From: Effrenium voratum
Lineage: Eukaryota; Sar; Dinophyceae; Suessiales; Symbiodiniaceae
DNA length: 64,000 bases
Assembly (NCBI GenBank): GCA_963377175.1
Contig: CAUJNA010002112.1
Span: 547,497 to 611,496 of the forward strand
Reading direction: 5' to 3'
This document shows positions 1,084 to 38,940 of the stretch, in pieces. The notes beneath the pieces are model-generated. The model was not told the DNA's origin and did not search any database. It was given only the letters and a program-made list of their open reading frames with translations. A program made the translations under genes and the position numbers. Numbering within the stretch: position 1 is the stretch's first letter; each line of letters begins with the position of its first letter.

Positions 1084-1148
1084 CAAACCCGCCTCAAAGA
1101 GGGACTGCATCTTCTTGATGTGCTGGTTCCGCTTCTTCTCAGTGTTGC
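1084..1148 (-). CDS. Channel gene, C-terminal cytosolic helix exon
   Basis: Reads NTEKKRNQHIKKMQSLFEAG, a basic amphipathic helix of the type that leads from S6 to an EF-hand region in dinoflagellate channels (KKM..LFE). It enters in phase 1, completing an Arg codon with the previous exon, after an AAAG acceptor. Two GC donors are possible: GCTTCG after 1,084 (phase 0, matches the edge exon) or GCCGAT after 1,065, which would add six codons. Low-coordinate neighbours are intron. Confidence 0.85.
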
Positions 1149-1507
1149 CTTTGCCAGAATCCAAAAAAGCAATCCCAGGCGTGAGAGACATTTCAGGCTC
1201 CCCTTCTCCACACGTTGCTGATGCATCGCCTCACCAAAAATATGGACTCTCAAGCCACCAATTGAATTGGGTTGTGAAAAATTGGGGGTGGGGGGGACAT
1301 TATGAATCCAACTTGCAAACGTGGTGGATCACTACCACACCATCTGGCATGTGGATCAAGGATTGTCTTTGAACAGCACGATTGACGGGAATCATATATA
1401 CATTGGACCCTGCCCCCACCCAGCAGCAGCGGATGATGGACATTTAGATCAACCACCACTCAAATGGTCTTCCAAATTGTGGACTGTTGGTGTTTGGGGG
1501 AAGGGTC

Positions 1508-1509
1508 CA

Positions 1510-1540
<31 letters not shown>

Positions 1541-1546
1541 ATTATA
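1508..1546. repeat. AT microsatellite
   Basis: Alternating TA interrupted once by GT. Confidence 0.9.
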
Positions 1547-1564
1547 CACACACACGTCTGGAAA

Positions 1565-1860
1565 CCTGTCACTTGGCCTCACAGTTCCTGCAGTTGCAGA
1601 CTGGAAGTTGGACAAAAAAGACCCAACAGCTCCGGGCAACCCTCATCCCTCTCGCTCGAATCATGTTTTTAAAACACAAATGCGAAAGCGCGACCCAACA
1701 TGGGAACCAAGATGAGCCATGATCCTGCAGTTGCAGTCTGGAAGTTGGACAAAAAAGGCCCAACTGCTCAGGGCAACCCTCATCCCTCTCGCTCGAATAA
1801 AATTCTTAAAACAAAATGCGAAAGCGCGACCCAACATGGGCACCAAGATGAGCCATGATC
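1565..1860. repeat. Tandem duplication of about 150 bases
   Basis: CCTGCAGTTGCAGACTGGAA...GATGAGCCATGATC occurs twice in a row (about 1,588-1,722 and 1,723-1,860) with few differences. Confidence 0.8.
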
Positions 1861-2089
1861 ATAACCTGGTATTTTAACGGCATACCCAAAGTCATTGAAG
1901 ATTAAGAGGGCGGAATATCCGCACACATTTATGGCTAGGACTATCCCTTACTAAGCTTCCTCTCGCATTGAGGCCGATTCATCTGCGAGTCTGCTGGAAG
2001 TCGCTCCAGGATACGAAACCTCGTCCCGGTTATAGGCTTCCCGCGGTTTCGAAAGGCTGGTTCCCATAGATACTAAATGGAAAAGGGAA

Positions 2090-2190
2090 ATCTCAAGGGC
2101 TACCTTCTTCATTCTTGGGATCCGAATCTTTTTGAGGAAACCATCCACAAACCAAAAGAATGGTTGAAAAGAATGGTTGGAATCAAGCCC
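2090..2190. repeat. Family E element, diverged
   Basis: Family E ends CTAGGGGTTGATTCC and GGAATCAACCCCTAG, with inner AGAAAGAAGGATCCCTGGAA. This copy: GGCTACCTTCTTCATTCTTG to GGAATCAAGCCCTAG. Confidence 0.65.
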
Positions 2191-2247
2191 TAGAATAACT
2201 AGGCTGATCGTTTTCAGATCCCCCGCTAAAAGTCACTTTTTGTTGGC

Positions 2248-2377
2248 TAAGGTACCTTCCGTTTCCATTCTTTCCAGGGATCCTTCTTTCTAGAAAACCT
2301 CCTGAAACCGAGGGAAAACGGATCCTGTTTTTGGAAAGAACGATGGTTAAAAAGAATGTGGAATCAACCCCTAGAAG
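2248..2377. repeat. Family E element
   Basis: GGTACCTTCCGTTTCCATTC to GGAATCAACCCCTAG. Confidence 0.82.
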
Positions 2378-2609
2378 GTTGTTGGGAATGAACCTAGGGA
2401 TTCCACTAAAGGAAACCAGATGGGATGGGTCTTAGGACCCCTTTTGCCTGGTTCGTTGTTTAAAGAGAAGCTAGCGGCAAACCGACGCCCTGCCACCAGA
2501 AACCGATAGAACATAGACTGCCCACTCCAATACCCGACCGGCAAAACAGATAGGGGTTCACCTAAAACTGATACCCCGGCAATATCGACCCTCCGCGGAG
2601 ATACGGGGC

Positions 2610-2673
2610 GTATCTGTTGGTTCAGGCGGCGCATCATGATCTTGTCGTCATTCTCGGCCGCTGAAAACGTCTC
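2610..2673 (-). CDS. Channel gene, post-S6 exon
   Basis: Reads ETFSAAENDDKIMMRRLNQQ followed by an Ile and a split Arg codon. The pattern ETF..A..DD.IMM is the characteristic sequence immediately after S6 in this channel family. Acceptor is TTAG; the donor is GCCCCG. The exon is 64 nt and its phase 1 end matches the following exon exactly. Confidence 0.9.
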
Positions 2674-3049
2674 CTAACCGCTGGGAGATTATGTATAACC
2701 TACATACTTAGTGGAGTTAGCTTTGTCATTCAAGGGTGACCCAAGGGTATATAGGGCGTCTTGTTTCAGATTGGACCCCCAAAATGGCTGGCGTTCCTTG
2801 TGGTTTCCCTTCAAACCACCAAAAAAGGCATACACGCAAGAAAGACACACCCAATATGAATAGGTGCTACACGAGTAATACTCGAAGCACCAAGCACAAC
2901 ACTTCAGGCACAGCATGCACCTCGAGACGTCTCATGGTTTTGTCAGCCCAAGTTGGTTTGGCTAAACAAAAAGAACTGGCGCACAGGGCCCATGGGTTTC
3001 AACCCATGGGCTCCGAACTCGGATGCTCCACAGGAATGTCCTTCACTTG

Positions 3050-4161: not shown

Positions 4162-4212
4162 CTTGAGGAAAACGCCGTTGATCACCGCCAGCAAGGCATA
4201 GCCCACCGTGAT
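4162..4212 (-). CDS. Channel gene, S6 exon
   Basis: A 51-nt exon encoding ITVGYALLAVINGVFLK, the pore-lining S6 helix; AVINGVF is the conserved inner-gate region of these channels. Acceptor CTCGAG, donor GACGGG (a GA donor). The same GACGGG donor follows the exons at 21,340 and 40,280. Both junctions are phase 0 and join HK upstream to ETF downstream. Confidence 0.93.
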
Positions 4213-5046: not shown

Positions 5047-5101
5047 CTTGTGCAGGATGGAGAAGACGCAAAAGGCTTCGTGGACGTGGTCCTGCAACAG
5101 C
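5047..5101 (-). CDS. Channel gene, post-filter and start of S6
   Basis: Encodes LLQDHVHEAFCVFSILHK after completing an Arg codon with the filter exon. This is the segment that follows the selectivity filter and leads into S6 (pattern R.LL..HV.EAF..F). Acceptor CCGCAG, donor GCGCAA. Reading on through the donor gives a hydrophilic tail and a stop within about 20 codons, as expected for intron. Confidence 0.9.
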
Positions 5102-6919: not shown

Positions 6920-7014
6920 CCTGGAGTCTCCTTCTGAACCTTTGAAAAAAGGTCCTTCCCAAAAGCAAGGGTCATGACCTCTTTTTCTAGGGGTCAGATT
7001 CGGAGACTCTAGGT
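6920..7014. repeat. Family A palindrome
   Basis: CCTGGAGTCTCCTTCTGAAC to GGAGACTCTAGGT; follows a family F copy directly. Confidence 0.8.
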
Positions 7015-7172
7015 TCACATTGCTACCCTCCCTAACCACTAACTTGGCACCTGACAGGGGGTCAGGTAGAAGAGGAAATTCATCTTCCACCCTCCCACAG
7101 GTGCCTTCTGTTACTAAAAGGAGGCTACCCAAAAGCATCCGGGAATGTCTTGGTGACCTGGTGCCAAGGGGC

Positions 7173-7207
7173 CGCGCCACTGGGGGCCAGTTGCCCAGAG
7201 TGATCTC
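7173..7207 (-). CDS. Channel gene, selectivity-filter exon
   Basis: A 35-nt exon encoding EITLGNWPPVA plus two bases of Arg. FEITLGNW.P.AR is the filter and second pore segment of dinoflagellate single-domain channels; the Glu after the pore helix is the likely filter acid. Acceptor CCGAG, GC donor GCCCCT, phase 2 end that matches the single G opening the next exon. Part of this interval is palindromic repeat on the other strand's reading, but the exon motif is unambiguous. Confidence 0.88.
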
Positions 7208-8136
7208 CTCGGATTTGCTTTTCCATTGGGCGCTCTTCCAGCAAAACGGTCGGAGCAACCTGGGATTTGAGGGCGCTACATGTGGTCAGGTCCCAAAACA
7301 TGCCATGGGTCTGCATCAAAGCATCGAAAACCCTTAGGGTAAAGGGAACTTCATTATGGAAGGTGTTGGACCTCAAAAAGGGCCTTTTTGAGGGTCCAAC
7401 AGCTGGGCTCCTTTTCTTGCCCTGAGGGTGACCAATGGTCGTTTTATCACCTGGACCCTCAAAGCCATAAACAAGTTGGATGTTGCAACCCATTTTAAAG
7501 GGCCCCGGCATGAGCCATGGGCAAAGCATCCAGCACCAACCACACCTGAACATTTGCCTCAACGAACCCCAGCAAAACATGAGAATGTTAGCCCCGGATG
7601 AATCAGGCAATCCTACACATGGGGGCCGTCACCCACCAAAGTGAAGCATACCCATCGCGTCGTATTCATCAACCAGGGAAGGGTTAATGAATCCGGGGTC
7701 GACATGAGTCATAATCAGAACCTGGTGTTAAAATGGTCTACCCAGAACGGTGTAAAGATTAAAAGAGGCGGCTGCACCCGGTTACGGGTGGGATGTTCCC
7801 TTAACCTTCGTCTGCTCGGGTTTTGAGGACGTGGCTTCCTTCCGGACCATACTAGAGCTTCATCATGGGTGAGTTTGCTTTACATGTTCCCAGCTGGACA
7901 AAAAAATCCAAAGCCATCAGAGGCGAGTTTCTGGACCCTCAAACCCCCAAAAAGATTGGCATCCGCCAACCGCAGGTTTGCGCCAGAACCAAACTACAAG
8001 GGAACTTAAGTCCATGTTGTTCAAAAGGCTAATAATCAAATGAGACCCCTCCTCTCCAACAAAAATAGGGGAACTTACTTTATTTGGACAAACAAATCGT
8101 CAGTGTCTCGCGGCTCCCCGAGACTGGACAAGTCTC

Positions 8137-8187
8137 GAACATGGTTAAGACAGCTCTGGAGCAGGTGCCGAAGTAGAGGAAGAGCTC
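8137..8187 (-). CDS. Channel gene, pore-helix exon
   Basis: 51 nt encoding ELFLYFGTCSRAVLTMF. YFGT.SRA.LTMF is the conserved pore helix of this channel group. Acceptor TGCAG; the donor chosen is GAGACT (GA type) because it joins in frame to EITLGNW. The exon could be extended by E-T-C-P to a GT donor at 8,124, but the resulting junction would lose the filter motif. Confidence 0.92.
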
Positions 8188-8730
8188 CTGCATTCAGGAT
8201 GCTCGTTCTAGCCATGCAAGGTGACGTCCAAAGCCACTCAAAAGTTGGACATATGCGGACCGGCGTTGGCCGCGAAGAAAAATCTGCCGTGCGTCAAAAA
8301 AGAACGGGGACCTTCTCACATGGTTGGTTTATCTCCTTGCCGGGGTTTCGGGGGATGGGAACCCGGTTCGGGTCCCGGTCAACCATGTCAGTCTGTTGCA
8401 TACGCAAAACTGGCTCGCATGAATGGAAGACATGCTTGGCTTAATTTAGCTTATGTTGGAGTTGAGGGAAAATGGGTCGGCATAAAATGAACAACGAGGA
8501 AACATCACACCATTAATCTAAAAATGGGCCTACCTTGTATAAGGGGGAGAGGGGGCGGGGTGTGGCCTTGCCCATGGAGCAAGTGGGTTCCCATAAATGG
8601 AGATCTCCAGGGGTCGAACCCCCCCTGCTGGGAAATTTGGCTTCCTGTGGCCTTCTGATCAGTAGTCAGATTGGTTGGGCTGGAGAGTGGAGGGGCAGCG
8701 AAGCTAAGTCTTGGGATTCCCAGAAAGAAC

Positions 8731-10320: not shown

Positions 10321-10817
10321 CTCAACCTTGGCACCAATTGCTGGGGGGCCCTCGCCTAGAAACCGCCTATAGACAAATTCGCCGAGCTTGAGGCTCCAGG
10401 TCCCTGCGCCTTTTGGCCCTCCTTTAGCTTCCCGATAGGAGTCCCAGAGGGCCGACATGTTTTTTTATTTGTTTTTTCCCGGGACCCGTTTGGGGGTCGG
10501 CGCTTTTTTGAGCCAGAACACCAACAACATCTGTTTCCGGGACCCGTTTGGGGGTCGTTTTTTGAGCCAGAACACCAACAGGAAAGCCAAGATCCAGGCT
10601 TCGAGCGACCCCGACACCTGCCAAAGTCCCCGGAGTCTCCAGAATTACAGTGGCCACAATCCCACAGCTACAATTCACACAGACTTCAACCTTTGCAGAG
10701 TTGCCTGTGGGTTGCTTGAGAACATCAACAGGAAAACCAACAAATTTTGGAGGGTCCACACAAAAGGACACAAAAAAACAACTCCCATAGAGCGACCGAA
10801 TTCGAACTTCCGTCCTC

Positions 10818-10862
10818 GTTGGCGTCCTTGAAGGAGACGTCTGTCTGGAAGACGATGGTGTC
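10818..10862 (-). CDS. Channel gene, S5-pore turret exon
   Basis: Encodes DTIVFQTDVSFKDAN, an acidic extracellular turret between S5 and the pore helix. Assigned by position, phase 0 at both ends, G/C-rich third positions and a clean CAG acceptor; the donor is GAGGAC. Turrets are poorly conserved, so the exact ends are less certain than for the helices. Confidence 0.7.
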
Positions 10863-10937
10863 CTGCGCGACCTTCTGCCTTGGCTTTTTTGTGGAACGCC
10901 AAGGGGCGCACCGGACGCATCGCAGAATTTAGATATA

Positions 10938-12989: not shown

Positions 12990-13052
12990 ACAGTCATGCC
13001 ACAGGAAGAGCGCGAAGATCAGCTGCAGCAGAAAGAGCCTCGGAACGGGAAG
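12990..13052 (-). CDS. Channel gene, second half of S5
   Basis: Reads LPVPRLFLLQLIFALFLWHD with a final Cys. RLFLLQLIFALFL is a typical S5 core (Q.IFALFL). It joins in frame to SVTAFWT of the preceding exon. Acceptor GAAAG; donor GAGCAG after TGT or GACTGT two codons earlier, both GA type and phase 0. Confidence 0.88.
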
Positions 13053-16155: not shown

Positions 16156-16744
16156 GGACTTCGACCCGCTGCTGGTTGAAAGCGAAAGTGAAGGAAACCC
16201 CAAAAGGCGAAACGCCAAAAAACAGCGTTTCGAGCCAAGTTTGGCCGCGCCGGTACCCCACACATCAGCTGACCAGCCCAGGAGCATCAGGAAGGACCAA
16301 AGCAGAACCTTAGTCACAGGGGCGCCTCCATCCCCCTACCTTAAGGGGAAGGGGGGTGGGGGTCCCCAATTCCATTTATATAGTCTTCCCCATAAAAGGG
16401 AAAATGGAACCACAAATGGAATTCCAGGGGTCACCCCCTGGTCCCCCAATTCCATTTTTGAGGGGGTGCCATACAAGCAGGTGAAGCAACCTCCGACCGC
16501 AAAGCCGGCATTGAAGAGTTTCCTATTTGGTCACTTGTGTTCCGCCATAACTTGTCCCCAGCTAAATGAGAACATGATCAGTGAATTGCAGGTTTCCCGT
16601 GTGGGGCTATCCAGGAGACGCGTGAATCAGATGCTCTCTGATTTCCACTTCCTTTGGGCCAGGTGTTGGGCAGTGGAACTGTTTCGCTGGGGAAATCATC
16701 GCAATCAGACAAGAACTTGGAGGCCCACTTTGAAATTTGCGGCT

Positions 16745-17926: not shown

Positions 17927-17980
17927 CGTCCAAAAGGCCGTGACGCTGCCCCGGAGAGCGGTGGTCAGGATGTAGAGCGC
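17927..17980 (-). CDS. Channel gene, S4-S5 linker and S5 start
   Basis: 54 nt encoding ALYILTTALRGSVTAFWT. With the end of the S4 exon it forms GFDALYILTTALRGS, the strongly conserved S4-S5 linker. Acceptor CCCAAG, GC donor GCACCG, phase 0 at both ends. It lies immediately beside a family B palindrome that ends at 17,911. Confidence 0.93.
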
Positions 17981-19274: not shown

Positions 19275-19369
19275 GTCGAAGCCCTTAAGCTTCCGCACCA
19301 GGCGCATCAAGCGCAGCAGCCGGGCCAGGCGCGCCAGGCGCAGCAGCATGGGGTCGATGGGCAGAATCC
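19275..19369 (-). CDS. Channel gene, S4 voltage-sensor exon
   Basis: Encodes ILPIDPM followed by LLRLARLARLLRLMRLVRK and LKGFD. Arg/Lys at every third position is the diagnostic S4 voltage sensor, with six positive charges in register. Acceptor GCGAG completes a Gly codon with the S3 exon; the GC donor is GCGCCT, identical to the donor of the first S3 exon. The local G/C content is far higher than in surrounding intron. Confidence 0.95.
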
Positions 19370-21339: not shown

Positions 21340-21373
21340 CTCGGATCACGGTGTCCACCAGCCAGCCCAACAC
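21340..21373 (-). CDS. Channel gene, second half of S3
   Basis: A 34-nt exon reading VLGWLVDTVIR plus one base. Joined to the exon at 33.6 kb it gives NWFDSITVLGWLVDTVI, a complete S3 with its acidic residues. Acceptor CCTAG, donor GACGGG, phase 1. It is separated from the first half of S3 by a 12,178-nt intron that holds the composite mobile element. Confidence 0.88.
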
Positions 21374-24140: not shown

Positions 24141-24144
24141 TTAC

Positions 24145-24344: not shown

Positions 24345-24411
24345 GGGCTGCCCGTTTTCTGATCCCTTGTAAAAAGTCCACAACTTGTGGGTTAAACTAT
24401 ACGACGAGTGG
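24345..24411. repeat. Family J repeat, left half split by the element
   Basis: CTGATCCCTTGTAAAAAGTC and ACTTGTGGGTTAAACTA match the first half of the family J copy at 835-960; the second half resumes after 32,686. Confidence 0.75.
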
Positions 24412-24429
24412 CCCGGAAGCATAGAGGCA

Positions 24430-25345
24430 AGTTGATGCAGGTGAGGTAACTCTCGCAAAGTTAGCATGAGGAGTTGGCAGGCGAAGCAATTCTCAAAAAG
24501 TTGGCATGAGAAGCTGGCAGGTTAAGTAACTCTCGAATAGTTGGCTGGCAAAGTTGGCGGGTGAAGTAATTCTCGCAAAGTTGACATGAGAAGTTGGCAG
24601 GCGAAGTAACTCAAGAGAAAAGTTGGCATGAGAAGTTGGCAGGTGAAATAACTCTCAAAGAGTTGGCATGAGAAGTTGGCAGGTGAAGTAACTCTCGAAA
24701 AGTTGGCGTGAGAAGCTGGCAGGTGAAGTAATTCTCGAAAAGTTGGCACGAGAAGATGGCGCGTGAAGTAACTCTCGAAAAGTTGGCGTGAGAAGCCGGC
24801 AGGTGAAGTAACTTTCGAAAAGTTAGCATGAGAAGTTGGCAGGCGAAGTAATTCTCGAAAAGTTGGCGCGAGAAGTTGGCAGGCGAAGTAACTCTCGAAA
24901 AGTTGGCAGGCGATGTTGGCAGGTGAAGTACCTCTCGAAAAGTTGGCATGAGAAGCTGGCAGGTGAAGTAATTTTTCGAAAAGTTGCCACGAGAGGTTGG
25001 CAGATAAAGTATTTCTCGAAAAGTTGGCATGAGAAGTTGGCAGGTGAAGTAATTCTCGAAAAGTTGGCAGGTGAAGTTGCCACGAGAGGTTGGCAGGTAA
25101 AGTATTTCTCGAAAAGTTGGCATGAGAAGTTGGCAGGTAAAGTAATTCTCGAAAAGTTGGCATGAGAAGCTCGCAGGTGTAGTAACTCTCGAAAAGTTGG
25201 CATGATAAGCTCGCAGGTGAAGTAACTCCTCGAAAAGTTGGCACGAGAAGTTGGCAGGTGAAGTAACTCTCGAAAAGGTGGCATGAGAAGCTGGCAGGTG
25301 AAGTAATTCTCGAAGTTTCGGCATGAGAAACTGGCAGGTGAAGTA
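24430..25345. repeat. 40-bp tandem array, left arm
   Basis: About 23 imperfect copies of a 40-bp unit containing AAGTTGGCATGAGAAG and GGTGAAGTAACTCTCG. Because 40 is not a multiple of three and the unit has no stop in some frames, long open frames of about 240 codons arise on the minus strand; these are artefacts. Confidence 0.95.
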
Positions 25346-25399
25346 ATTAACCCTCAAAAAGCTGGAGCGGCGGAGGCGCTCCGCGTGCTACATTTGCAA

Positions 25400-25640
25400 T
25401 TTACAGTTGCGATTTTCCAGCCATTTGTATCTAAAAGTTGCGATTTTCCAGCCGGAGCTGCGGGAGCACGCTCCGCGTACTACGTCTGTACTTAAAAAGT
25501 GCGATTTTCCAGCCGGAGCTGCAGCAGCCTCCGCGTACTACGTCTGTACTTAAAAGTTGCGATTTTCCAGCCGGAGCTGCAGGAGCACGCTCCGCGTACT
25601 ACGTTTGTACTTAAAAGCTGCGATTTTCAAGCCGGAGCTG
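25400..25640. repeat. 58-61 bp tandem repeat
   Basis: Four to five units beginning GCGATTTTCCAGCCGGAGCT (25,410, 25,440, 25,501, 25,559, 25,620). The last unit runs into the tRNA-like sequence. A shortened version precedes the second tRNA-like copy near 31,300. Confidence 0.85.
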
Positions 25641-25642
25641 CC

Positions 25643-25714
25643 GCGGACCAGGGGGGAATCGAACCCGGGACCGCGGGATTGCGAAAGCAGGCGCGCACAC
25701 CACGAGACAACTTC
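25643..25714 (-). other. tRNA-like sequence, copy 1
   Basis: On the minus strand the 3' part reads CCGGGTTCGATTCCCC (T-arm, box B), preceded about 35 bases earlier by TTGTCTCGTGGT (box A-like). The 3' acceptor half has no matching 5' strand and the anticodon stem does not pair, so this is a tRNA relic or SINE head, not a functional tRNA. It may supply an internal RNA polymerase III promoter. Confidence 0.6.
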
Positions 25715-25741
25715 CAAAAGCCGTTTCGCGAGCAAGAAAAT

Positions 25742-26325
25742 CGCACGGCGCCACAGCGAGAGCGCTTCGACACGCACGATCTCCGCAGAGGGTTCATCGG
25801 GCTCAAGACAGATGCGCACGGCGCCACAGCGAGAGCGATCCGACACGCACGATCCCCGCAGAGGGTTCATCGGGCTCAAGACAAATTCGCACGGCGCCAC
25901 AGCGAGAGCGCTTCGACACGCACGATCTCCGCAGAGGGTTCGCCAAGGTCAAGACAAATTCGCACGGCGCCACAGCGAGAGCGCTTCGACACGCACGATC
26001 TCCGCAGAGGGTTCGCCAAGGTCAAGACAAATTCGCACGGCGCCACAGCGAGAGCGCTTCGACACGCACGATCTCCGCAGAGGGTTCGCCGCGCTCAAGA
26101 CAAATTCGCACGGCGCCACAGCGAGAGCGCTTCGACACGCACGATCTCCGCAGAGGGTTCGCCAAGGTCAAGACAAATTCGCACGGCGCCACAGCGAGAG
26201 CGCTTCGACACGCACGATCTCCGCAGAGGGTTCGCCGGGCTCAAGACAAATTCGCACGGCGCCACAGCGAGAGCGCTTCGACACGCACGATCTCCGCAGA
26301 GGGGTGCGTTTCGTAAGCTCCCGTC
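25742..26325. repeat. 73-bp tandem array 1
   Basis: Eight head-to-tail 73-bp units, each starting CGCACGGCGCCACAGCGAGA (25,742, 25,815, 25,888 and so on to 26,253). Units differ at few positions. The length equals that of a mature tRNA, and a tRNA-like sequence lies 30 bases away, but the unit itself does not fold as one. Open frames of up to 281 codons here come from repetition. Confidence 0.95.
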
Positions 26326-26344
26326 GGGCCTACCCCCGCCATAA

Positions 26345-26665
26345 AAAGAAGAAGAATTAAGAGTCGAGATGTGAAGGTAGAACAGAAAAGTTAGCTTGTG
26401 TTTTTAGGATAGTGAAGTAACACCCGACAAATTAGCTTGTGCTTTTAGTAGAATGAGATAACAGCCGAAAAGTTGACATGAGAAGTTGGCAGGTGAAGTA
26501 ACTCTCAAAAAGTTGACATGAGAAGTAGTTGGCAGGTGAAGTAACTCTCGACAAGTTGGCATGAGAAGTTGGCAGGTGAAGTAACTCTCGACAAGTTGGC
26601 ATGAGAAGTTGGCAGGTGAAGTAACTCTCGACAAGTTGGCATGAGAAGTTGGCAGGTGAAGTTGC
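26345..26665. repeat. Tail and 40-bp array, middle
   Basis: A unique tail (GAGTCGAGATGTGAAGGTAG) followed by degenerate then near-perfect 40-bp units, in the same orientation as the left arm. Nearly identical to 32,360-32,640. Confidence 0.85.
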
Positions 26666-26705
26666 AGCCGCTTTTAGAAGAAGAACCCTTCGCAATGCTT
26701 CCGGG
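26661..26705. repeat. Internal copy of the element's right end
   Basis: GCAGCCGCTTTTAGAAGAAG through ATGCTTCCGGG is the same as the true right end at 32,642-32,686. Its presence inside shows that the composite contains at least two end-bearing units. Confidence 0.85.
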
Positions 26706-26769
26706 AAAAAACACAAAAACAAAGACAAGGAATGCACAAAAATGTTAGACATCGAGCAGACGCCTCGAC

Positions 26770-27187
26770 CCTTGCTTGGATCACGCTCCAGGGCACACGC
26801 AATGAGTGCAATCTGCAAGTGCCTTGCCAGAGCCTCAACTGGCTGCAAATCCACACTGCCAGGAACTGCAGTTACATCTTTGCCAGCGCGAGGCAACGAT
26901 GCTTCAAACTCACCAAAGGCCGATAAACACGGCGTCGTCCATGCGATGATCTGCTGCTTGATCTGTGCCTCGCTGCAGTGGCGACCCGCCAAGCGATCTT
27001 CTGCCATCCCTAATAGCCAAGCCAAAAGACTGGCGCGACGCTGCTTGGAGGGCAGCTCAGTCTCGAGCAGCGCAGCATCAACTGGCAGACCAGCGCGGTC
27101 GGACCGCACGCATGACCAGATCCAACGCCAGCCGCGCTCAGGGAAAGCGTCGTCTGCAAGAACATCACGGCCAGCCGCTGACGCAGC
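26770..27187 (-). CDS. Element gene, 3' exon
   Basis: After a GTGGTAG acceptor: AASAAGRDVLADDAFPERGW, then RWIWSCVRSDRAGLPVDAAL and on to VPGSVDLQPVEALARHLQIA and LIACALERDPSKGRG. About 139 codons with helical, charged content and no stop. The frame stays open past the internal element end into the 40-bp array (stop at 26,432), so a donor near GTCTGC at about 26,770 or a read-through terminus is assumed. Family not recognised. Confidence 0.55.
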
Positions 27188-27648
27188 CTACCACAACTGA
27201 TAGACCGAAACCAAAGAAAACCTTGCCTCAGGCGGAGATTAGCCAACATGATGCTAGGCCTGTGAAATTTGATGATGTTCTAGGACTTCTAAGATGAGCT
27301 GGAGCTGCTAGCCCTGTAAAAGATGTCTGTGCGCAATCCCAGTGAGAACAGGTAAGCAACTGTCGACAAAAGCAAGTGTTTTAAAAAGCCATGCCTCTGC
27401 TCTGGAAGAAGGCGAACGCACAAAAGAATAAGGCGAACGCTCCAAAGCCTCTTACATTCAGGGAAACGCTGTTGACAAAAACATTCTTTTGAGCAAGCCC
27501 TCGTCTGTTCGCGCAAACACTGCTGACAAGAAACACATTCTTCACAATCCCCGGGAGAAAAGGTAAGCAACCGTCAACAAAAACAAGCGCTTTTCCTCTG
27601 TTCGCGCGAACACTGTTGACAAGAAACAAGTGCTTTGGAAAACCATGC

Positions 27649-27906
27649 CTCTGCGCTGGAAGGAGGACACAGAGATTCGACCAAGACAGCAAGCAGCTGG
27701 CCCTTGGTGCGCTGCTGGCCAGACGTGGGGTCCCTCTGCGAAACGCCTAGGCCGGCTCCAAAGGAGCGAAGCCTTGCCGCCGTCATGGAGCCATCCAGCT
27801 CGGCCCGGAGCCAGTCAGAACCTCGTGCTTCTGCTTCGGCTCGCAAGTGCTGTGCATCGGGAAGACCATGCCCAGAACTCGCTACAGCTGTCGAAGACGA
27901 AGTGGC
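27649..27906 (-). CDS. Element gene, SAP-like repeat exon A
   Basis: Exactly 258 nt, phase 0 at both ends. Reads ATSSSTAVASSGHGLPDAQH, LRAEAEARGSDWLRAELDGS, MTAARLRSFGAGLGVSQRDP, TSGQQRTKGQLLAVLVESLC. The part LRSFGAGLGV...G....KGQLL..LV fits the helix-loop-helix of a SAP-type nucleic-acid-binding motif. Acceptor GCGCAG, GC donor GCATGG. Confidence 0.65.
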
Positions 27907-28263
27907 CTGCGCTCTTATCACATAGTTCTTGAACACGCACAAAAGAGTAAGGCGACCAGCCTCTTACATTCAGGGAAACACTGTTGACAAAAACATTCTT
28001 TCGAGCAAGCCCTCCTCTGTCCGCTACGCGCGCTGAAAGACACGCTCCGGTATCTCAAGGCTTGTCGTGAACAAGTTGCGCATTGAGGGTGCCAATAGAG
28101 CTAAGCAATAAAACCAAACTTGTGGGGTCTACTTGTAGCTGCGAAACCAGGCCTCTGCGTCAGGTCGGGAAGGTACGCAACACCATGGAAATAAACAAGC
28201 CATCTACACACAGTTCAAACATCCCCACAATTCGGCGGTATATTTCCAAAAGCGACACCATGC

Positions 28264-28521
28264 CTCTGCGATGGCGGAAGGGCGCAAAGCTGCCACCAAA
28301 GCATCAAGCAGCTGACCCTGGGCGCGCTGCTGTCCAGTGGTGGGATCCCTCTGGGGAACATCCAAGCCAGCTGCAAAGGAGCGAAGCTGGCCCCGCGGCA
28401 TTGAGCTTTCCAGCTCGGACCGCAGCCATTCCTCGCCACGCGCAACTGCTTCAGCCCGTAAATGCTCTGCGTCAGGAAGGCCATCCCCAGGACTCGCAGC
28501 AGCTGTGGAAGACGAAGTTGC
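28264..28521 (-). CDS. Element gene, SAP-like repeat exon B
   Basis: 258 nt; variant module with GDGLPDAEHLRAEAVARGEE, LRSFAAGLDVPQRDPTTGQQ and AQGQLLDALVAALRPS. Same acceptor and donor as exon A. Confidence 0.65.
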
Positions 28522-28677
28522 CTGCGCTCGTACAACATAGTTCTTACACACGCACAAAGAGCAAGGCAACCAGCTTCTTACATTCAGGGAAACACTGTTG
28601 ACAAAAACATTCTTTCGAGCAATCCTCTGTTCGTGCGAACACTGTTGACAAGAAACAAGTGCTTTGGAAAACCATGC

Positions 28678-28935
28678 CTCTGCGCTGGAAGGAGGACACA
28701 GAGATTCGACCAAGACAGCAAGCAGCTGGCCCTTGGTGCGCTGCTGGCCAGACGTGGGGTCCCTCTGCGAAACGCCTAGGCCGGCTCCAAAGGAGCGAAG
28801 CCTTGCCGCCGTCATGGAGCCATCCAGCTCGGCCCGGAGCCAGTCAGAACCTCGTGCTTCTGCTTCGGCTCGCAAGTGCTGTGCATCGGGAAGACCATGC
28901 CCAGAACTCGCTACAGCTGTCGAAGACGAAGTGGC
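28678..28935 (-). CDS. Element gene, SAP-like repeat exon C
   Basis: 258 nt, identical in protein to exon A, from which it differs by a 1,029-base shift. It arose by the tandem duplication described at 27,605. Confidence 0.65.
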
Positions 28936-29292
28936 CTGCGCTCTTATCACATAGTTCTTGAACACGCACAAAAGAGTAAGGCGACCAGCCTCTTACATTC
29001 AGGGAAACACTGTTGACAAAAACATTCTTTCGAGCAAGCCCTCCTCTGTCCGCTACGCGCGCTGAAAGACACGCTCCGGTATCTCAAGGCTTGTCGTGAA
29101 CAAGTTGCGCATTGAGGGTGCCAAAAGAGCTAAGCAATAAAACCAAACTTGTGGGGTCTACTTGTAGCTGCGAAACCAGGCCTCTGCGTCAGGTCGGGAA
29201 GGTACGCAACACCATGGAAATAAACAAGCCATCTACACACAGTTCAAACATCCCCACAATTCGGCGGTATATTTTCAAAAGCGACACCATGC

Positions 29293-29550
29293 CTCTGCGA
29301 TGGCGGAAGGGCACAAAGCTGCCACCAAAGCATCAAGCAGCTGACCCTTGGCGCGCTGCTGTCCAGTGGTGGGATCCCTCAGGGGAACATCCAAGCCAGC
29401 TGCAAAGGAGCGAAGCTGGCCCCGCGGCATTGAGCTTTCCAGCTCGGACCGCAGCCATTCCTCGCCACGCGCAACTGCTTCAGCCCGTAAATGCTCTGCG
29501 TCAGGAAGGCCATCCCCAGAACTCGCAGCAGCTGTGGAAGACGAAGTTGC
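29293..29550 (-). CDS. Element gene, SAP-like repeat exon D
   Basis: 258 nt, nearly the same as exon B (1,029 bases away); differences include VPLRDPTTG for VPQRDPTTG and AKGQLL for AQGQLL. Confidence 0.65.
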
Positions 29551-29706
29551 CTGCGCTCTTACAACATAGTTCTTACACACGCACAAAGAGCAAGGCGACC
29601 AGCTTCTTACATTCAGGGAAACACTGTTGACAAAAACATTCTTTCGAGCAATCCTCTGTTCGTGCGAACACTGTTGACAAGAAACAAGTGCTTTGGAAAA
29701 CCATGC

Positions 29707-29964
29707 CTCTGCGCTGGAAGGAGGACACAAAAAGTTGACCAAGGCATCAAGCAGCTGGCCCTTGGTGCGCTGCTGGCCAGAAGCGGGGTCCCTCTTCTGC
29801 ACGCCAAGGCCGGCTCCAAAGGAGCGAAGCCTCTCCGCCGCCATGGAGCCGTCCAGCTCGGCCCGGAGCCAGTCAGACCCCCGTAGAGCTGCTTCGGCTC
29901 GCAGACGCTCTGCGTCAGGAAGGCCATCCCCAGAACTCGCAGCAGCTGTGGAAGACGAAGTTGC
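29707..29964 (-). CDS. Element gene, SAP-like repeat exon E
   Basis: 258 nt, a hybrid-looking module: its start matches exons B/D and its middle matches A/C (GDGLPDAERLRAEAALRGSD, LRSFGAGLGVQKRDPASGQQ). Suggests unequal crossing-over or gene conversion among the exons. Confidence 0.65.
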
Positions 29965-30210
29965 CTGCGCTCTTACAACATAGTTCTTACACACGCACAA
30001 AGAGCAAGGCGACCAGCTTCTTACATTCAGGGAAACACTGTTGACCAAAGCAATCTTTCGAGCAAGCCCTCCTCTGTCCGCTACGCGCGCTGAAAGACAC
30101 GCTCCGGTATCTAAAGGCTTGTCGTGAACGAGTTGAGCATTGAGGGTGCCAAAAAGAACTAAGCAATAAAACTAAACTTGTGGGGTCTACTTGTAACTGC
30201 GAAACCATGC

Positions 30211-30459
30211 CTCTGTGTCAGGTCGCGAACGTAGAGCTGCAACCACGGCTTCAAGCAGCTGGCTCTTGGAAAGCCGACTACCAGATGCGGGATCCCTCTG
30301 CTGCACGCCGAGGCCAGCTGCGAAGGCACGAAGCTTGTCCAGCTTCATCGAGCCATCCAGCTCAGCATGGAGCCAGTCTTGACCATGTACTGCTGCTTCA
30401 GCCCGTAAATGCTCAGCATCAGGAAGAGCATCCAAGGGATTCGCAGCCTGCTGCGCGCG
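30211..30459 (-). CDS. Element gene, SAP-like repeat exon F
   Basis: 249 nt and the most diverged module: RAQQAANPLDALPDAEHLRA, LRAFAAGLGVQQRDPASGSR, LSKSQLLEAVVAALRSRPD. A good acceptor (GTGTCTTTCAG) precedes it. It is the first module in transcription order. Confidence 0.65.
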
Positions 30460-30499
30460 CTGAAAGACACACGGTGGAAACCAACAGCGCAAGCCAAAA

Positions 30500-30782
30500 G
30501 TGGTAATTCCAAGAAACCAAGAGGGGTATGCGAAACAATCGTGCGCTCTCGCATGCCAACGTCCAGCCTGCGCACGTCGCTGGCGACCAGAATGCGACAT
30601 GGCAACACGACACGTCGGAAATACCCGCCAGCGCCGCGCGACTCTGATATCTTCTGGCCACCCGCTGTGTGTAACTGCTTTGACAAGATTGGTGCGCCAA
30701 GGAAACGAATCCGCACTTCGGAAGATGCGATCTGAGCGATGACACCTTCTACAGCACTAACACGGAGGACTGCCTTGAGCAT
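30500..30782 (-). CDS. Element gene, 5' exon
   Basis: Opens at ATG 30,782: MLKAVLRVSAVEGVIAQIAS, then VRIRFLGAPILSKQLHTAGG, YFRRVVLPCRILVASDVRRL and DVGMRERTIVSHTPL. The frame is also open a little upstream. Spacing to exon F is about 40-60 bases, a short intron. No family recognised; the sequence is beta-rich and basic. Confidence 0.5.
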
Positions 30783-30989
30783 GAATGCACGTGCAAGCAG
30801 CAACGACAAGCGACAGCAACCTCATGGAGCACCCCTCCAAAAAATGAAGCATAGCACCAACACAAAGAAGCCGTGTCGCCCTAATCAACTGTCGCCGCAA
30901 ACATTCTCTGGGCAAGCTCCGCTACTGAGACACTCATGACATCCAAGCTTCGGCTACTATTGCTCTTGTCAGCTGCCTATCACTCCAAA

Positions 30990-31295
30990 ATCCAACTGCG
31001 CATGTTTATTTTACAAGCCAATTACAAAAGCCAACTGCCCAATCTCACTTCACAAGCCAATGACAACTGCCAACTGCCCAATCTCACTTCACAAGCCAAA
31101 TGCACTGTCCCAAAACACAAGCCAAATTTTCGAGTGTTACTTCACTATCCTAAAGCGCAAGCTAACTTCTCGGGCGTTTCTTCGGCATCGGAAAGCGCAA
31201 GTATTTTTTTCAGGCGTTACTTCACTATGCAAAAAATTGCAAGCCGACTTTTCCTTTTCTACCTTCTCTTCTCGATTCTGAGTTCTTTCTTCTTT
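30990..31295. repeat. Inverted element tail
   Basis: Contains AGTGTTACTTCACTATCCTA and related phrases that are the reverse complement of the tail near 26,345-26,480. It faces the left arm, so the two could serve as long subterminal inverted repeats. Confidence 0.75.
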
Positions 31296-31371
31296 TTCCG
31301 GCGGAGCTGGGGAGACGCTCTCCGCGCACTACTTTTGTACTTCAAACTTACGATTTTCGCGCCGGAGCTGG

Positions 31372-31441
31372 CGCGGACCAGGGGGGATCGAACCTGCGAC
31401 GCCGCGATTGCGAAAGCAGGCGCGCAAACCATGAGACAACT
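31372..31441 (-). other. tRNA-like sequence, copy 2
   Basis: Box B is perfect here (GGTTCGATCCC) and box A-like TTGTCTCATGG lies 34 bases upstream on the minus strand, a normal polymerase III spacing. The cloverleaf does not close. Confidence 0.62.
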
Positions 31442-31479
31442 TTCAAAGGGTATTTGCGAGTAGCGACAGCAAGAGAATT

Positions 31480-32325
31480 CGCACGGCGCCACAGCGAGCG
31501 GTTTCGACACGCACGATCCCCGCAAAGGGTCTGCCAAGGTCAAGGCAGATTCGCCCGGGACCACAGCGAGAGCGATCCGACACGCGCGATCCCCGCAGAG
31601 GGTTCATCGGGCTCACGACAGCTTCGCACGGAACCACGGCGAGGGCAATCCGACACGCGCGATCCCCGCAGAGGGTGCGCCAAGGTCAAGACAGATTCGC
31701 ACGGGGCCACAGCGAGAGCGATCCGACACGCAGGATCCCCGCAGAGGGTGCGCCAAGGTCAAGACAATTCGCACGGGACCACAGCGAGAGCGCTTCGACA
31801 CGCACGATCCCCGCAGAGGGTGCGCCAAGGTCAAGACAGATTCGCACGGGGCCACAGCGAGAGCGCTTGGACACGCACGATCTCCGCAGAGGGTTCGCCG
31901 CGACCAAGACAAATTCGCACGGCGCCGCAGCGAGAGCGCTTCGACGCGCAGATCTCCGCAGAGGGTTCGCCAAGGTCAAGACAAATTCGCACGGCGCCAC
32001 AGCGAGAGCGCTTCGACACGCACGATCTCCGCAGAGGGTTCAAGACAAATTCGCACGGCGCCACAGCGAGAGCGCTTCGACACGCACGATCTCCGCAGAG
32101 GGTTCGCCGCGCTCAAGACAAATTCGCACGGCGCCACAGCGAGAGCGCTTCGACACGCACGATCTCCGCAGAGGGTTCGCCAAGGTCAAGACAAATTCGC
32201 ACGGCGCCACAGCGAGAGCGCTTCGACACGCACGATCTCCGCAGAGGGTTCGCCGCGCTCAAGACAAATTCGCACGGCGCCACAGCGAGAGCGCTTCGAC
32301 ACGCACGATCTCCGCAGAGGGGTGC
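31480..32325. repeat. 73-bp tandem array 2
   Basis: About 11-12 units of the same 73-bp repeat. The left units are more diverged (GGGACCACAG, CGATCCCCGC) than the right ones, and two are shortened (near 31,940 and 32,040). Open frames up to 312 codons are artefacts. Confidence 0.95.
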
Positions 32326-32344
32326 GTTTCGTAAGCTCCTGTCG

Positions 32345-32640
32345 GGCCTACCCCCGCCAGAAAAAGAAGAAGAATTAAGAGTCGAGAAGTGAAGGTAGAA
32401 CAGAAAAGTTAGCTTGTGTTTTTAGGATAGTGAAGTAACACCCGACAAATTAGCTTGTGCTTTTAGTAGAATGAGATAACAGCCGAAAAGTTGACATGAG
32501 AAGTTGGCAGGTGAAGTAACTCTCAAAAAGTTGACATGAGAAGTAGGAGAAGTTGGCAGGTGAAGTAACTCTCGACAAGTTGGCATGAGAAGTTGGCAGG
32601 TGAAGTAACTCTCGACAAGTTGGCATGAGAAGTTGGTGAA
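32345..32640. repeat. Tail and 40-bp array, right
   Basis: Near copy of 26,345-26,665 with fewer 40-bp units and a few small indels, ending in the terminal sequence of the element. Confidence 0.85.
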
Positions 32641-32686
32641 GTTGGCAGCCGCTTTTAGAAGAAGAACCCTTCGCAATGCTTCCGGG

Positions 32687-32775
32687 AATAGTGAAACCCA
32701 ACCACGAAACCAATTAAAAACCACAAGCAAACACAGGAACCAGAGGGACTCCTGGGAACAGAAACCACCTCTGAA
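32687..32775. repeat. Family J repeat, right half split by the element
   Basis: GTGAAACCCAACCACGAAAC and CAGGAACCAGAGGGACTCCT continue the family J sequence interrupted at 24,411. Confidence 0.7.
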
Positions 32776-32802
32776 CCAGCTAAGTATCACAAAAAACATC
32801 TA

Positions 32803-32890
32803 CCTGAACCCCCGAACTACCCCTAACAAACGGAATTCACCGCATATTTTGAACAGTAACCCATTTTTAAGAGAATTCTGAGGGTCCAGG
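32803..32890. repeat. Family D element
   Basis: Complete copy just outside the composite element. Confidence 0.8.
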
Positions 32891-33551
32891 AAATTTGAAA
32901 AGGGGAGTCTGGACTGCTGAGGTTTTACCCGCGATTTGGGTTGCTCTCCAAATATGTATGTGTGTGTGCGTCTTGATTTGAGTGTGTACCCCGTTTTCGA
33001 GTTGAAGGGAAACCGAAAGGAACACCGAAGCCGTTTTGGGGGGGGCCTCAAGATAACGGACCCAAATAGGTTCTCGCCTAAGAGGAAACTCAGCCAAAAT
33101 TAGTCTAAAGACCGCTTGGGGGTAGATATAACACCAGGGTTTGCCACTCACTACAAGTATGATGGCCGGCTACACACAGCGGCCTGCTGAACTGGGAAAT
33201 GAGACCCCTCTACACGCTGAGTTTTGGGTGCATCCCAAGCCGTCTAGACCGGCCAAGTTGGCAACTGCACCAGGCACGACCGGCTTAACTCGCTGGGGCT
33301 GAGTGAGTTCTATCCCAGTGGATTCATCCCTCCCTTCCAACCTGGCACCTCTGGGAGGTACCTGAAAAAAAGGAAGAAGATGGGTTTCCTCTTCAAACCC
33401 CATGTCTGGTGCTATGTTAGGAGGGACCCCTAAAATACCTGGAAGATTGGTTTCCTCAAACGACCCCATGGCGCTATGTTAGGAGGGGGGGCTGGCCGTC
33501 CTGGGATCCTTCGGATCTCGGATCGAACCATCCCCTACCCGACGGAGGCGC

Positions 33552-33608
33552 GGTGATGGAGTCGAACCAGTTCCAAAGATCGCAGAAGAAGATGTAGCCC
33601 ATGCCCGC
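33552..33608 (-). CDS. Channel gene, first half of S3
   Basis: 57 nt encoding AGMGYIFFCDLWNWFDSIT. WNWFD is the S3 hallmark, with the acidic residue that pairs with S4 arginines. Acceptor is a pyrimidine run ending CCAG; GC donor GCGCCT. Phase 0 at both ends. Confidence 0.93.
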
Positions 33609-34437: not shown

Positions 34438-34820
34438 TATATTTGGGCAGATCTTTGCAAAGTTTCGGACAGAACATGTGAGTTCCAAACAAGTCAAACC
34501 AGGACGAAGTTGGGGTTGCCGCCACTTTCCCTTGAAAGCAACCAAACACGCTGACATACATACATTAAACACACAAATGGGCTTCCACCACAACATACCA
34601 GAAAACAGGTGCTGAGAAAGCCATTCACTTCCGGTCCAAACCCAACAAGTTCCTAACTCAGATGCCCAGTGCCCATGGGGAAAAAATGGCATCCTTTTTT
34701 GGTTGGTTGAGTTTCAAGGGGAACACTCCCCCCCAAAAAAAAAAAGGAAAAAGGAGCGGAATCCACTCGGCCACTCAACTCAGGGAGTGAAATTGAGAAA
34801 GACGACTTGAGACCAGCTGC

Positions 34821-34879
34821 CACTCTCAAGATCAGCTCGATCAGGAAGATGGACCCGAAAACCCACTCCTCAAGACGCG
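34821..34879 (-). CDS. Channel gene, S2 exon
   Basis: Reads RLEEWVFGSIFLIELILRV. LEE.VF..IF.IEL.LR is the S2 pattern, including the Glu of the charge-transfer centre. It enters in phase 1 after an AAAG acceptor, completing Ala with the previous exon, and ends at a GC donor (GCAGCT) in phase 0. Confidence 0.93.
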
Positions 34880-35862: not shown

Positions 35863-36180
35863 TATGTATGAAGAAGCTTGGCTCCTCGTGAGGAAACGGA
35901 TACGTATTACGCCACTCCCTCCCTTCCAAGACACGTCTACGAGTCCACGCCGAGCTTCGGAGCCCTCCAGCATGGTCGAGGCGCCAGGCCAAACATCGTC
36001 TGCTGGCATCGTGTAGGTCCGCATTCCTGCCAAAAGACTCACTTCCTATCGGTTGGATTGGGTAGGACCAGTCTAAACTTTTTCCTTCAAGGGTTGTTTC
36101 AGGTATGGATTCTGGAGGTATGGAGGTTGCAAAGCGCTTATACAGGGTATATACTGCATTTACCGGTATGTAATCATGCA

Positions 36181-36641: not shown

Positions 36642-36669
36642 CTAGGGCGTAGCCCAGCTGCAGGCCCGC
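36642..36669 (-). CDS. Channel gene, S1-S2 loop micro-exon
   Basis: A 28-nt exon encoding AGLQLGYAL plus one base. FEAQYAGLQLGY across the junction matches the S1-S2 loop pattern (Q-x-x-GL..GY) of this family. Acceptor TTGAG, GC donor GCGCGG; the phases on both sides fit. Its size alone would make it invisible to most gene finders. Confidence 0.82.
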
Positions 36670-36723
36670 CTCAAGTGAGGCGAATGAAAACATAGAGGTT
36701 GCCTCCCAACTGACATGGGGGGT

Positions 36724-36825
36724 GGCTGCTTGCTGTTGACCCCTCTGCAAACAGTTTTCACTTTTTGGGGGTTTGGTGGAAAGCCCCTTGAAGTCTCAAG
36801 ATCCAACCCAATAGCAGTCAAGAAT
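36724..36825. repeat. Family J-like repeat
   Basis: Variant as at 3,050; it abuts a family F copy on its right. Confidence 0.65.
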
Positions 36826-37094
36826 AGGAGTCCAAAATGGAACCTTGGTAAATGGAAAGGTAGACAAAAACCTGCGTAACCCCAGCTTTTTAATGGTGAC
36901 CCAAAGCCACATGGAGCCGTTCAACGCTTGGGGGGTCTTGGTGTGGATCATTTTCCTTTTAAAGGGACCATTTCCCGAACGTCAGCTTCTGGCTGTTGGC
37001 TGGTGGGAGGAGGGTAACCTTCGGGTAAAACTGGGCTGTGCAAACGAATCCCCTGCTTGAAGCAAATCAAACGAACACGGGTTGTGTTCCGTAC

Positions 37095-37230
37095 TACTGT
37101 GGTTTTGGACGAAATACACTTCACACCACGGTTCAATTAAAAAAATAAGCAGACTGCTGGTAGTTACGTTGGGGAATCATATCATTCCAGCGAATCTGAA
37201 AGGTGGTGCGAAATGGATTTCGTCCTAGCT
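37095..37230. repeat. Family C palindrome
   Basis: Left arm TACTGTGGTTTTGGACGAAA, right GGTGGTGCGAAATGGATTTC. Confidence 0.82.
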
Positions 37231-37466
37231 GTGATCTTGATAACGTCCATAGGTTTCCCTGGTAAATGGATGGCATAAGACCAATCTAAACCAGTGGAAC
37301 CCATTTATTTCCAACCAAACCTGCAAAGGACACCTGGTCTCAAAATGTTCGCCTAGCCCCTGCCCGGAAAAATATTGAAGATCCAAAGGACTACCAAAGA
37401 CCACAACGGTTTAGGGGGACCCCAGGGTTTGGCTTCTCCTTTACAAATCTTAACAAAAAAACCGGT

Positions 37467-37551
37467 ACCTGGACTCTCAAAGTACCCGTGAAGGAGAATT
37501 CACCGCAGAATTTCGGCGACCAAGCTTCAAGGGAATTGTGAGGCTCCAGGA
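37467..37551. repeat. Family D element
   Basis: CCTGGACTCTCAAAGTACCC to TGTGAGGCTCCAGG. Confidence 0.75.
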
Positions 37552-38208
37552 ACCCTAACGAAAAAAAAGGATGGCTATTCCAAGTCCCCTGCATGCCAGT
37601 GGCAATCAAAACGTAAGGGGTCTACCCAAATTCATTTAATGCCCGGCCGCACCGATTCATGAATGGCTCCTTACAAACGTTCACTTGTGCAGGAATCGCT
37701 TGTGGTTTTGAAAAATGCCTCAGGGATCAGCATACCCAGGAATACCGAGCAACCTGAGTCACACTCAAAAGCTGGTATCACAGTACCTTTTGAGGCCCTG
37801 CATACATAGAATGGAGTACTGCAAGATCAATTTTAGTCATCGTTCTCATCAACACCACCAAGAAGGAAAGAAGCTGTTCACTTGTTGGACGGCTAGTTAT
37901 CCCCTCCCTGGTACATGTCCAGCCTGACTCACCCTGGTAGGGAACAATGAAATCCATCTTTTGTGAGGGTTCCACGCGCTAGCAATAACCGTTTCTTGGT
38001 TCCCAACGGGTGTTTCGTGAGACCCTCAATTCGACACCGAGTTGGTTGGCAAGGCTGACCTGTTGAGATGGTGATCTGTTTGCCTTTTGGGGTGCTTCAT
38101 CTTCTTCGGCATGGGATTGCACCGGTCCAGTTCAGTAGCCGCCACGTTCTTTTTGGAAGGCTTTTTCGCAGTCGTGAAGTTTAAAGCTTGCCATCACCTG
38201 CAAAGCCG

Positions 38209-38440
38209 TATGGCCGATTTTTAGTTATTTTTTTTCGGACGGAACCCGTGTTTGGATTGCTTTTCCCGTATGGTCATTTGTTTCTGGCCGGTGGGCATAT
38301 TTGGCCGTATGCAACCCGTATTTGTTCAACAACATGTTGACAAACAAAACAGTAAATGGCCGCATGGCCGATTTTTTGGGCCCGAGCTGGCCAAAGACAG
38401 AACAAACCGTCACATATGGGTTTCCAGGAAAAAATGCATG
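38209..38440. repeat. Family L palindrome
   Basis: A 230-bp element rich in CGTATGG/CCATACG: ends TATGGCCGATTTTTAG and GGCCGATTTTTTGGGCC, centre CCCGTATTTGTTCAACAACA. Confidence 0.82.
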
Positions 38441-38557
38441 GGGGGAAGCATTGGTTGCTATTGAGCTTCGCTTTCGCTCTTGGTTCCGTGGTTGTGAAGG
38501 CTTGTATGGGCCTTACCAGAAACACTATAAGACTATAAGACTATATATCTTATACCA

Positions 38558-38642
38558 CCTGGACCCTCAAACTACCCTTTAAAAATAAAATTCACCCACC
38601 ATAATTTCGGGTTGCAACAACCGATCATTTTGAGGGTCCAGG
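38558..38642. repeat. Family D element
   Basis: Best-kept copy, CACCTGGACCCTCAAACTAC to TTTTGAGGGTCCAGGT. Confidence 0.88.
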
Positions 38643-38814
38643 TAGAAACAAAACACTAGACGGGCTGTATTTTTGGAGGGACAGAGGGGATATTCTGGTC
38701 AATGGTTTGGTCGAATCTACAGGACGATTCTTGGGCGCCCCCAAGAAAAATCGCCCTTCCCTGTCCTGACATTTGTTTTCCAAACCCGAACTCTTTCTGA
38801 TCCCGCCGAGTGGC

Positions 38815-38940
38815 ATATTGCGCCTCGAAGGACATGATGATGGTGTTGACCACGATGATGGCGCAGATCATACTCTCGAAGAAGGGGTCGGTCACAAACT
38901 TGTAGAGCCTCGACTCCTGGTGCAGCTTTGAGCAGGGATC
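38815..38940 (-). CDS. Channel gene, S1 exon
   Basis: 126 nt (42 codons) starting DPCSKLHQESRLYKF and running through VTDPFFESMICAIIVVNTI and IMSFEAQY. F...V..P.FE..I..II..NTI...FEAQ is a textbook S1. Acceptor TGTCAG, GC donor GCCACT, phase 0 at both ends. This is the longest exon of the gene in the window. Confidence 0.94.

Follow-up and report, generated by a model that had tools for sequence, protein, structure and literature searches.

Can a channel gene be read from raw genomic DNA when it is scattered over many tiny exons? The question is raised by a stretch of 64,000 nucleotides (nt) from Effrenium voratum (contig CAUJNA010002112.1 of assembly GCA_963377175.1, positions 547,497 to 611,496 of the forward strand; hereafter the window), in which an earlier note had described a complete voltage-gated channel domain. 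Here we present a channel gene model on the minus strand that runs from 38940 to 1093 and consists of 17 coding exons of 23-126 nt. Joined, the exons form 921 nt or 307 codons in a single open frame with zero stops or frameshifts. The S1-S6 part very probably represents a working nuclear gene for a subunit of a dinoflagellate voltage-gated cation channel.

Gene model and coding evidence

Motif anchors located the first exons; channel probes, both generic and of dinoflagellate type, were applied next, and the edges were set by phase. An earlier version of the 17-exon model held a wrong E11 (9465-9402). This version lies behind the PDB search, the null for third-position GC (GC3), the Pfam comparisons for E6 and E9, the GT-donor and introner tests and the intron GC given below; exchanging one E11 for the other leaves the Pfam score at 69.2 bits. 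The final exons are as follows.

E1, 38815..38940, minus strand, 126 nt: N-terminal end of the visible part and S1 (DPCSKLHQESRLYKFVTDPFFESMICAIIVVNTIIMSFEAQY), GC3 0.86
E2, 36642..36669, minus strand, 28 nt: S1-S2 linker (AGLQLGYAL)
E3, 35964..36026, minus strand, 63 nt: S1-S2 linker (MRTYTMPADDVWPGASTMLE)
E4, 34818..34879, minus strand, 62 nt: S2, carrying F84 and E87
E5, 33552..33608, minus strand, 57 nt: start of S3 (FFCDLWNWFDSIT), carrying D109
E6, 21343..21373, minus strand, 31 nt: S3 (VLGWLVDTVI), GC3 10 of 10 codons
E7, 19275..19369, minus strand, 95 nt: S4, with an arginine at every third residue, six in all (ILPIDPMLLRLARLARLLRLMRLVRKLKGFD)
E8, 17939..17980, minus strand, 42 nt: S4-S5 linker (ALYILTTALRGSVT)
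E9, 16286..16308, minus strand, 23 nt: start of S5 (VLLWSFL), less certain
E10, 13000..13038, minus strand, 39 nt: S5 (LFLLQLIFALFL)
E11, 10815..10878, minus strand, 64 nt: S5-pore turret (QKVAQDTIVFQTDVSFKDANE), from coding composition, with a 3' edge that may shift by a few codons
E12, 8137..8187, minus strand, 51 nt: pore helix (ELFLYFGTCSRAVLTMF)
E13, 7173..7207, minus strand, 35 nt: selectivity filter (EITLGNWPPVA)
E14, 5047..5101, minus strand, 55 nt: start of S6 (LLQDHVHEAFCVFSILHK)
E15, 4162..4212, minus strand, 51 nt: S6 (ITVGYALLAVINGVFLK)
E16, 2631..2673, minus strand, 43 nt: post-S6 (ETFSAAENDDKIMM)
E17, 1093..1148, minus strand, 56 nt: helix that may lead into an EF-hand (NTEKKRNQHIKKMQSLFE); GC comes next, and the gene runs on beyond the window

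The 16 introns span 615 to 12,178 nt (mean 2,308), intron 5 being the longest, and the exonic share of the gene span is 2.4% (921/37,848 bases). GC amounts to 58% in the joined coding sequence and to 0.49 in the introns. The gene is incomplete, as it extends past base 1 after E17. As the window ends beyond S6, it shows neither whether the channel is single-domain nor whether it has an EF-hand.

Three lines of evidence are independent of the consensus probes, namely a Pfam match, coding bias and a search with a fragment of Cav3.3. The profile search that the earlier note had proposed for the translated exons returned Pfam Ion_trans (PF00520) with 69.2 bits and E = 3.9e-19 over profile positions 2-231 of 241, the curated cut-off being 25 bits. 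A preliminary model, joined from 14 pieces whose edges were still rough, had scored 57.4 bits. GC3 amounts to 0.87 in the final model, with single exons ranging from 0.71 to 1.00, and was 0.83 in the version with the wrong exon, whereas open segments of similar lengths on the same strand, drawn at random in 3000 sets of 17, gave a mean of 0.51 and a maximum of 0.63. The domain-IV fragment of Cav3.3 (alpha-1I), run against the window by tblastn, found the S4 exon as top match with E 0.004, while 40 shuffled windows reached 0.035 at best. The remaining matches are not significant, with the S2 exon ranking third (E 1.3). The channel consensus itself gave a best chain with E 2.4e-10, and none of 40 shuffles went below 0.12.

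The earlier note had essentially the same gene in view, since its values of 28 nt, 126 nt, 12.2 kb and 38940 correspond to E2, E1, intron 5 and the edge of E1. It was right about short exons that follow one another correctly and whose joined frame yields channel landmarks, and the final model confirms agreeing phases and a total divisible by three. The exons all lie on the minus strand, which the note does not mention. Moreover YFGTCSRAVLTMF and EITLGNW indeed lie on separate exons (8187-8137 and 7207-7173). Its counts of 15 exons and 882 coding nt were too low, the model holding 17 and 921; the missing exons are, we think, E9 and E11. Of its ranges, the upper bound of 126 nt and the longest intron stand, whereas the shortest exon measures 23 nt instead of 28 and the shortest intron 615 nt instead of 0.8 kb. 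The extent of 1084..38940 is correct at 38940 and has to be shortened at the other edge, where the last exon stops at 1093 before GC. "Complete" can apply to S1-S6 and not to the gene, which runs off the window.

Channel domain, pore and relatives

Six helices and a pore loop appear in order, as judged by the Pfam coverage and by PDB alignments that keep this order. Hydropathy gives six peaks, two of them weak and S4 not among them, and alone does not settle the S1-S6 pattern. S4 carries six arginines with a spacing of three from R133 to R148. Alignment with solved channels places F84 and E87 in S2 and D109 in S3, which we take to be the charge-transfer centre.

The filter reads TLGNWPP. It has a glycine at the high-field-strength site (third letter) and no acid in its seven letters, and hence selectivity is not to be assumed; we expect a voltage-gated cation pore and predict no ion. 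From F to W, FEITLGNW counts eight residues, presumably one fewer than in bacterial and Cav pores. The pore pattern is probably typical of dinoflagellate single-domain channels, a view also taken in the earlier note. In the proposed mode of action the protein would assemble in the membrane around the pore, as four subunits if it is single-domain, and on depolarisation the arginines of S4 would slide past the centre formed by F84, E87 and D109, which would open the S6 gate. Calcium may control the channel via a C-terminal EF-hand. Pfam finds no EF-hand in the visible part, and any loop would fall beyond base 1. KKMQSLFE at the end of E17 presumably fits the first helix of such a motif.

A PDB search returned 54 sequences at E <=0.01, with values down to 2.3e-17 and voltage-gated Ca and Na channels in the majority, and together with Ion_trans this backs the voltage-gated channel domain. 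Domain IV of Cav3.3 scores best as a single repeat among the three alignments listed, with 44.4 bits from S1-S2 to S6. At S4, LPINPTIIRIMR stands against LPIDPMLLRLAR of this T-type Ca channel. Cav3.3 differs in having four repeats, whose filters each contain an acid (E/E/D/D), according to the channel literature. Two-pore channel 3 matches over S2-S5 (E 1.3e-5). The single-domain entries 8j7f, 8j7m and 7x5v match with E ~0.001; we take them to be the Emiliania channel NaVEh.

Within the PF00520 superfamily the protein is alike in the domain over the whole profile, the S4 arginines, the charge-transfer residues and the pore loop. It differs by its acid-free filter and by the 17 tiny exons of the visible part. 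EukCatA and EukCatB, single-domain phytoplankton channels, have the same domain plan. A filter comparison in PMC8002053 gives TLESWAS for NaChBac, TLDAWAD for EukCatA and TGESWSE for EukCatB, with the third letter as high-field-strength site. Both EukCat filters carry an acid at this site; the one described here does not. EukCats occur in dinoflagellates, and EukCatB has an EF-hand (excerpts of PMC8002053 and PMC11085791). Plant two-pore channel TPC1 shares G-N with our filter in its second filter, MGN, a likeness of a few letters only, and is a two-repeat channel unlike the single repeat seen here. It is described as non-selective in a passage of PMC11085791. We tentatively propose, and consider it possible rather than probable, a homotetrameric voltage-gated channel with a ring of acid-free TLGNW filters, whose ion choice lies outside EEEE/DEKA logic and maybe nearer the G-N filter of plant TPC1, and whose gene is spliced wholly without GT donors.

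PF00520 ranks in the top ten domains of each of four Symbiodinium genomes in the figures given by PMC6123633, and voltage-gated ion channels are in the top 20 of each taxon in those of PMC6249206. Given this abundance and the EukCats of dinoflagellates, the gene is a new member of a known channel family. The find is thus genuine and mostly ordinary, as the family is already known to be very common in dinoflagellates. The acid-free filter poses a concrete question of physiology: dinoflagellates hold many genes with PF00520, and the known rules do not give the ion choice here.

Splice sites and alternative readings

In the final model, 12 of the 16 introns have GC donors and 4 have GA, with GT in none; all 16 acceptors read AG, with G next in 14. 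A table in PMC10666404 lists 25-58% GC, 0.1-24% GA and 24-75% GT donors and 80-97% AGG acceptors in six genome columns. A seventh column (99.9% GT, 57% AGG) we take as the parasite Amoebophrya from like figures in an excerpt of PMC7245778. Since GC/GA donors with AG(G) acceptors match the published values, the window fits a dinoflagellate, and the origin that the earlier note had read from the pore motif is backed by the splice signature. For A. gibbosum the table of PMC10666404 gives 0.1% GA donors versus 4/16 here, and the coding GC of P. cordatum is 65.9% versus 58%, which speaks against P. cordatum as the source. According to the same table, mean introns measure 4709 bp in Prorocentrum cordatum, 3732 in Amphidinium, 1408 in Polarella and 486-869 bp in three columns taken as Symbiodiniaceae. 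The mean of 2.3 kb here is therefore within the known range of 486-4709 bp. With mean exons of 99-240 bp in the six columns, the 54 nt found here are short. A literature search gave no paper on dinoflagellate microexons, as judged by titles and the openings of abstracts.

The primary transcript would be cut at the GC/GA donors and AG(G) acceptors, uniting about 17 small exons of the visible part; we infer expression and splicing as drawn. A GT-donor test allowed in-frame shifts of at most 24 bases for donors and 36 for acceptors, with a protein change of 0-5 residues. A GT...AG alternative exists at 10 of 16 junctions, two of which involve the rejected exon, and none at the other 6. Hence the lack of GT is a reading of the model and not a proof. 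Introners were sought as inverted repeats of at least 8 bases near both intron ends, compared with 2000 random pairs. Within 30 bases such repeats occur in 1/16 introns versus 20/2000 pairs, within 60 bases in 2/16 versus 107/2000. These matches fall on the two introns flanking the rejected exon. The 16 introns give no sign of introners. The earlier note expected standard gene finders to miss most of the exons; the P. cordatum pipeline of PMC10666404 did require changes to Minimap2, PASA, AUGUSTUS and MAKER for such splice sites. The 17 exons can serve for testing gene finders on dinoflagellate DNA. Despite its low exon content and a model without GT donors, the channel gene is readable from raw genomic DNA.

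Several points weigh against the gene as proposed. Searched by itself, the pore half matches nothing in the PDB significantly (best E 1.4), and hence the channel assignment rests mainly on S1-S5. A rival for E6 at 27221-27179 outscored 21373-21343 on a channel probe (25 vs 18). E9 adds nothing to Pfam (70.7 bits without, 69.2 with it), and when 25 other intervals in the window were scored, one came out as high. The stretch 30447-30354 inside the intron-5 repeats scores 18.1 bits in a composition scan, compared with 18.6 for E11. Finally, introns of such size and repeats like those in intron 5 could be expected of a copy in decay as well.

Regarding single exons, omission of E6 costs the Pfam match 10 bits. 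The rival at 27221-27179 was rejected with 63.5 vs 69.2 bits; it sits in the repeat-rich part of intron 5. Another candidate, LLVVFNWFRG near 32736, was dropped, a choice with no Pfam test behind it. The E9 score of 28 was reached by 0/300 shuffles of its interval (best 27). E9 was kept because its 23 nt supply the exact phase between E8 (phase 0) and E10 (phase 2), the alternative being a lengthened E8 spliced to E10. The first candidate for E11, 9465-9402 (IVVMEFEPHIVKDPRPSPRRL), had been picked for likeness to an expected linker and was discarded with GC3 0.48 and a coding score of -8.0 bits. E11 at 10878-10815 was found by composition alone, outside the training set. It has GC3 0.95 and +18.7 bits, is the best in its interval and fits in phase on both sides. 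The whole-window composition scan (both strands, cut-off 11 bits) yielded 13 minus-strand and 4 plus-strand stretches. Model exons account for seven of the 13 (E11 and six that belong to the training set), and 6 are non-model, among them the 18.1-bit stretch of intron 5; of the 4, two lie antisense to E1 and E7.

The domain could instead be a single repeat from a channel with four domains (Cav/Nav-like) or two, the others lying beyond the window; that the gene runs past the window edge would fit. Four-domain channels exist in dinoflagellates according to the literature, and the rank of Cav3.3 domain IV as best single repeat among the three alignments points the same way. Channel probes gave no second repeat in 25 kb upstream of E1, however, and found just one in the 64 kb, in which the gene is incomplete. 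Also DDKIMM...KKMQSLFE after S6, which we take to be the start of the EF-hand tail of one-domain channels, counts against further domains. We thus regard a multi-domain channel as rather unlikely.

A working gene has further to be set against a pseudogene, i.e. a decaying dinoflagellate channel copy with introns swollen by repeats, whose recent decay left the exons intact-looking. Intron 5 with its 12.2 kb and large tandem repeats would fit, as would the 2 of 16 acceptors lacking G after AG, and the filter glycine could count as lost function. This reading conflicts with 307 codons free of stops and frameshifts, with the GC3 bias in every one of the 17 exons and with the retained S4, charge-transfer and pore landmarks, which makes it very improbable.

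That the exons are a chance pattern put together by readers knowing the channel consensus has a next to negligible probability and is refuted for the model as a whole by Pfam, GC3 and the tool-derived channel fragment, even though the search relied on consensus probes and weak exons were chosen among many candidates, once wrongly; small exons such as E9 and the splice edges are individually less certain.

Repeats and other features of the window

Upstream of E1, four minus-strand stretches share the coding bias of the channel exons (40399-40249, 45047-44946, 48323-48236 and 50611-50569; 12.5-16.0 bits). They may be N-terminal exons, another gene or chance, with 40399-40249 as a lead, without other support, for an N-terminal exon.

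Seven of the 33 reading frames of at least 150 amino acids were compared with Pfam, and none reached a curated cut-off (best PF13714, 22.8 vs 31.5 bits). Rfam and tRNA scans of the window gave none. Among viral contigs the protein query had zero matches and two pattern searches returned 0 and 1 locus; the latter (L001) is antisense to a reading frame of 552 amino acids and was taken as chance. Query bases 7000-8400, the part used for plasmids, had no match there.

The repeats of intron 5 (21374-33551) form a composite.

24418..32648, no strand: tandem-repeat composite inside intron 5, non-protein, with units of 40, 61, 73 and ~1,030 bp

Four reading frames in it lack a Pfam match above cut-off. 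The ~1,030-bp unit stands in direct repeat at 27594-29204 and 28623-30233 (96% identical). The 73/40-bp arrays recur at 31.5-32.6 kb in the same order with 95% identity over 887 bp.

Two families of short repeats occur besides. The first is a palindromic element, e.g. at 38557-38643, with the ends ACCTGGACCCTCAAA and TTTGAGGGTCCAGGT, present in one full copy of 87 bp and two diverged ones. It looks like a miniature inverted-repeat transposable element (MITE), and its 14-mer CCTGGACCCTCAAA occurs 13 times outside 24.4-32.7 kb. The second family is AGGGTCATGGAGACTCCAGGT, the 14-mers of which are found 7 to 8 times outside the same region.

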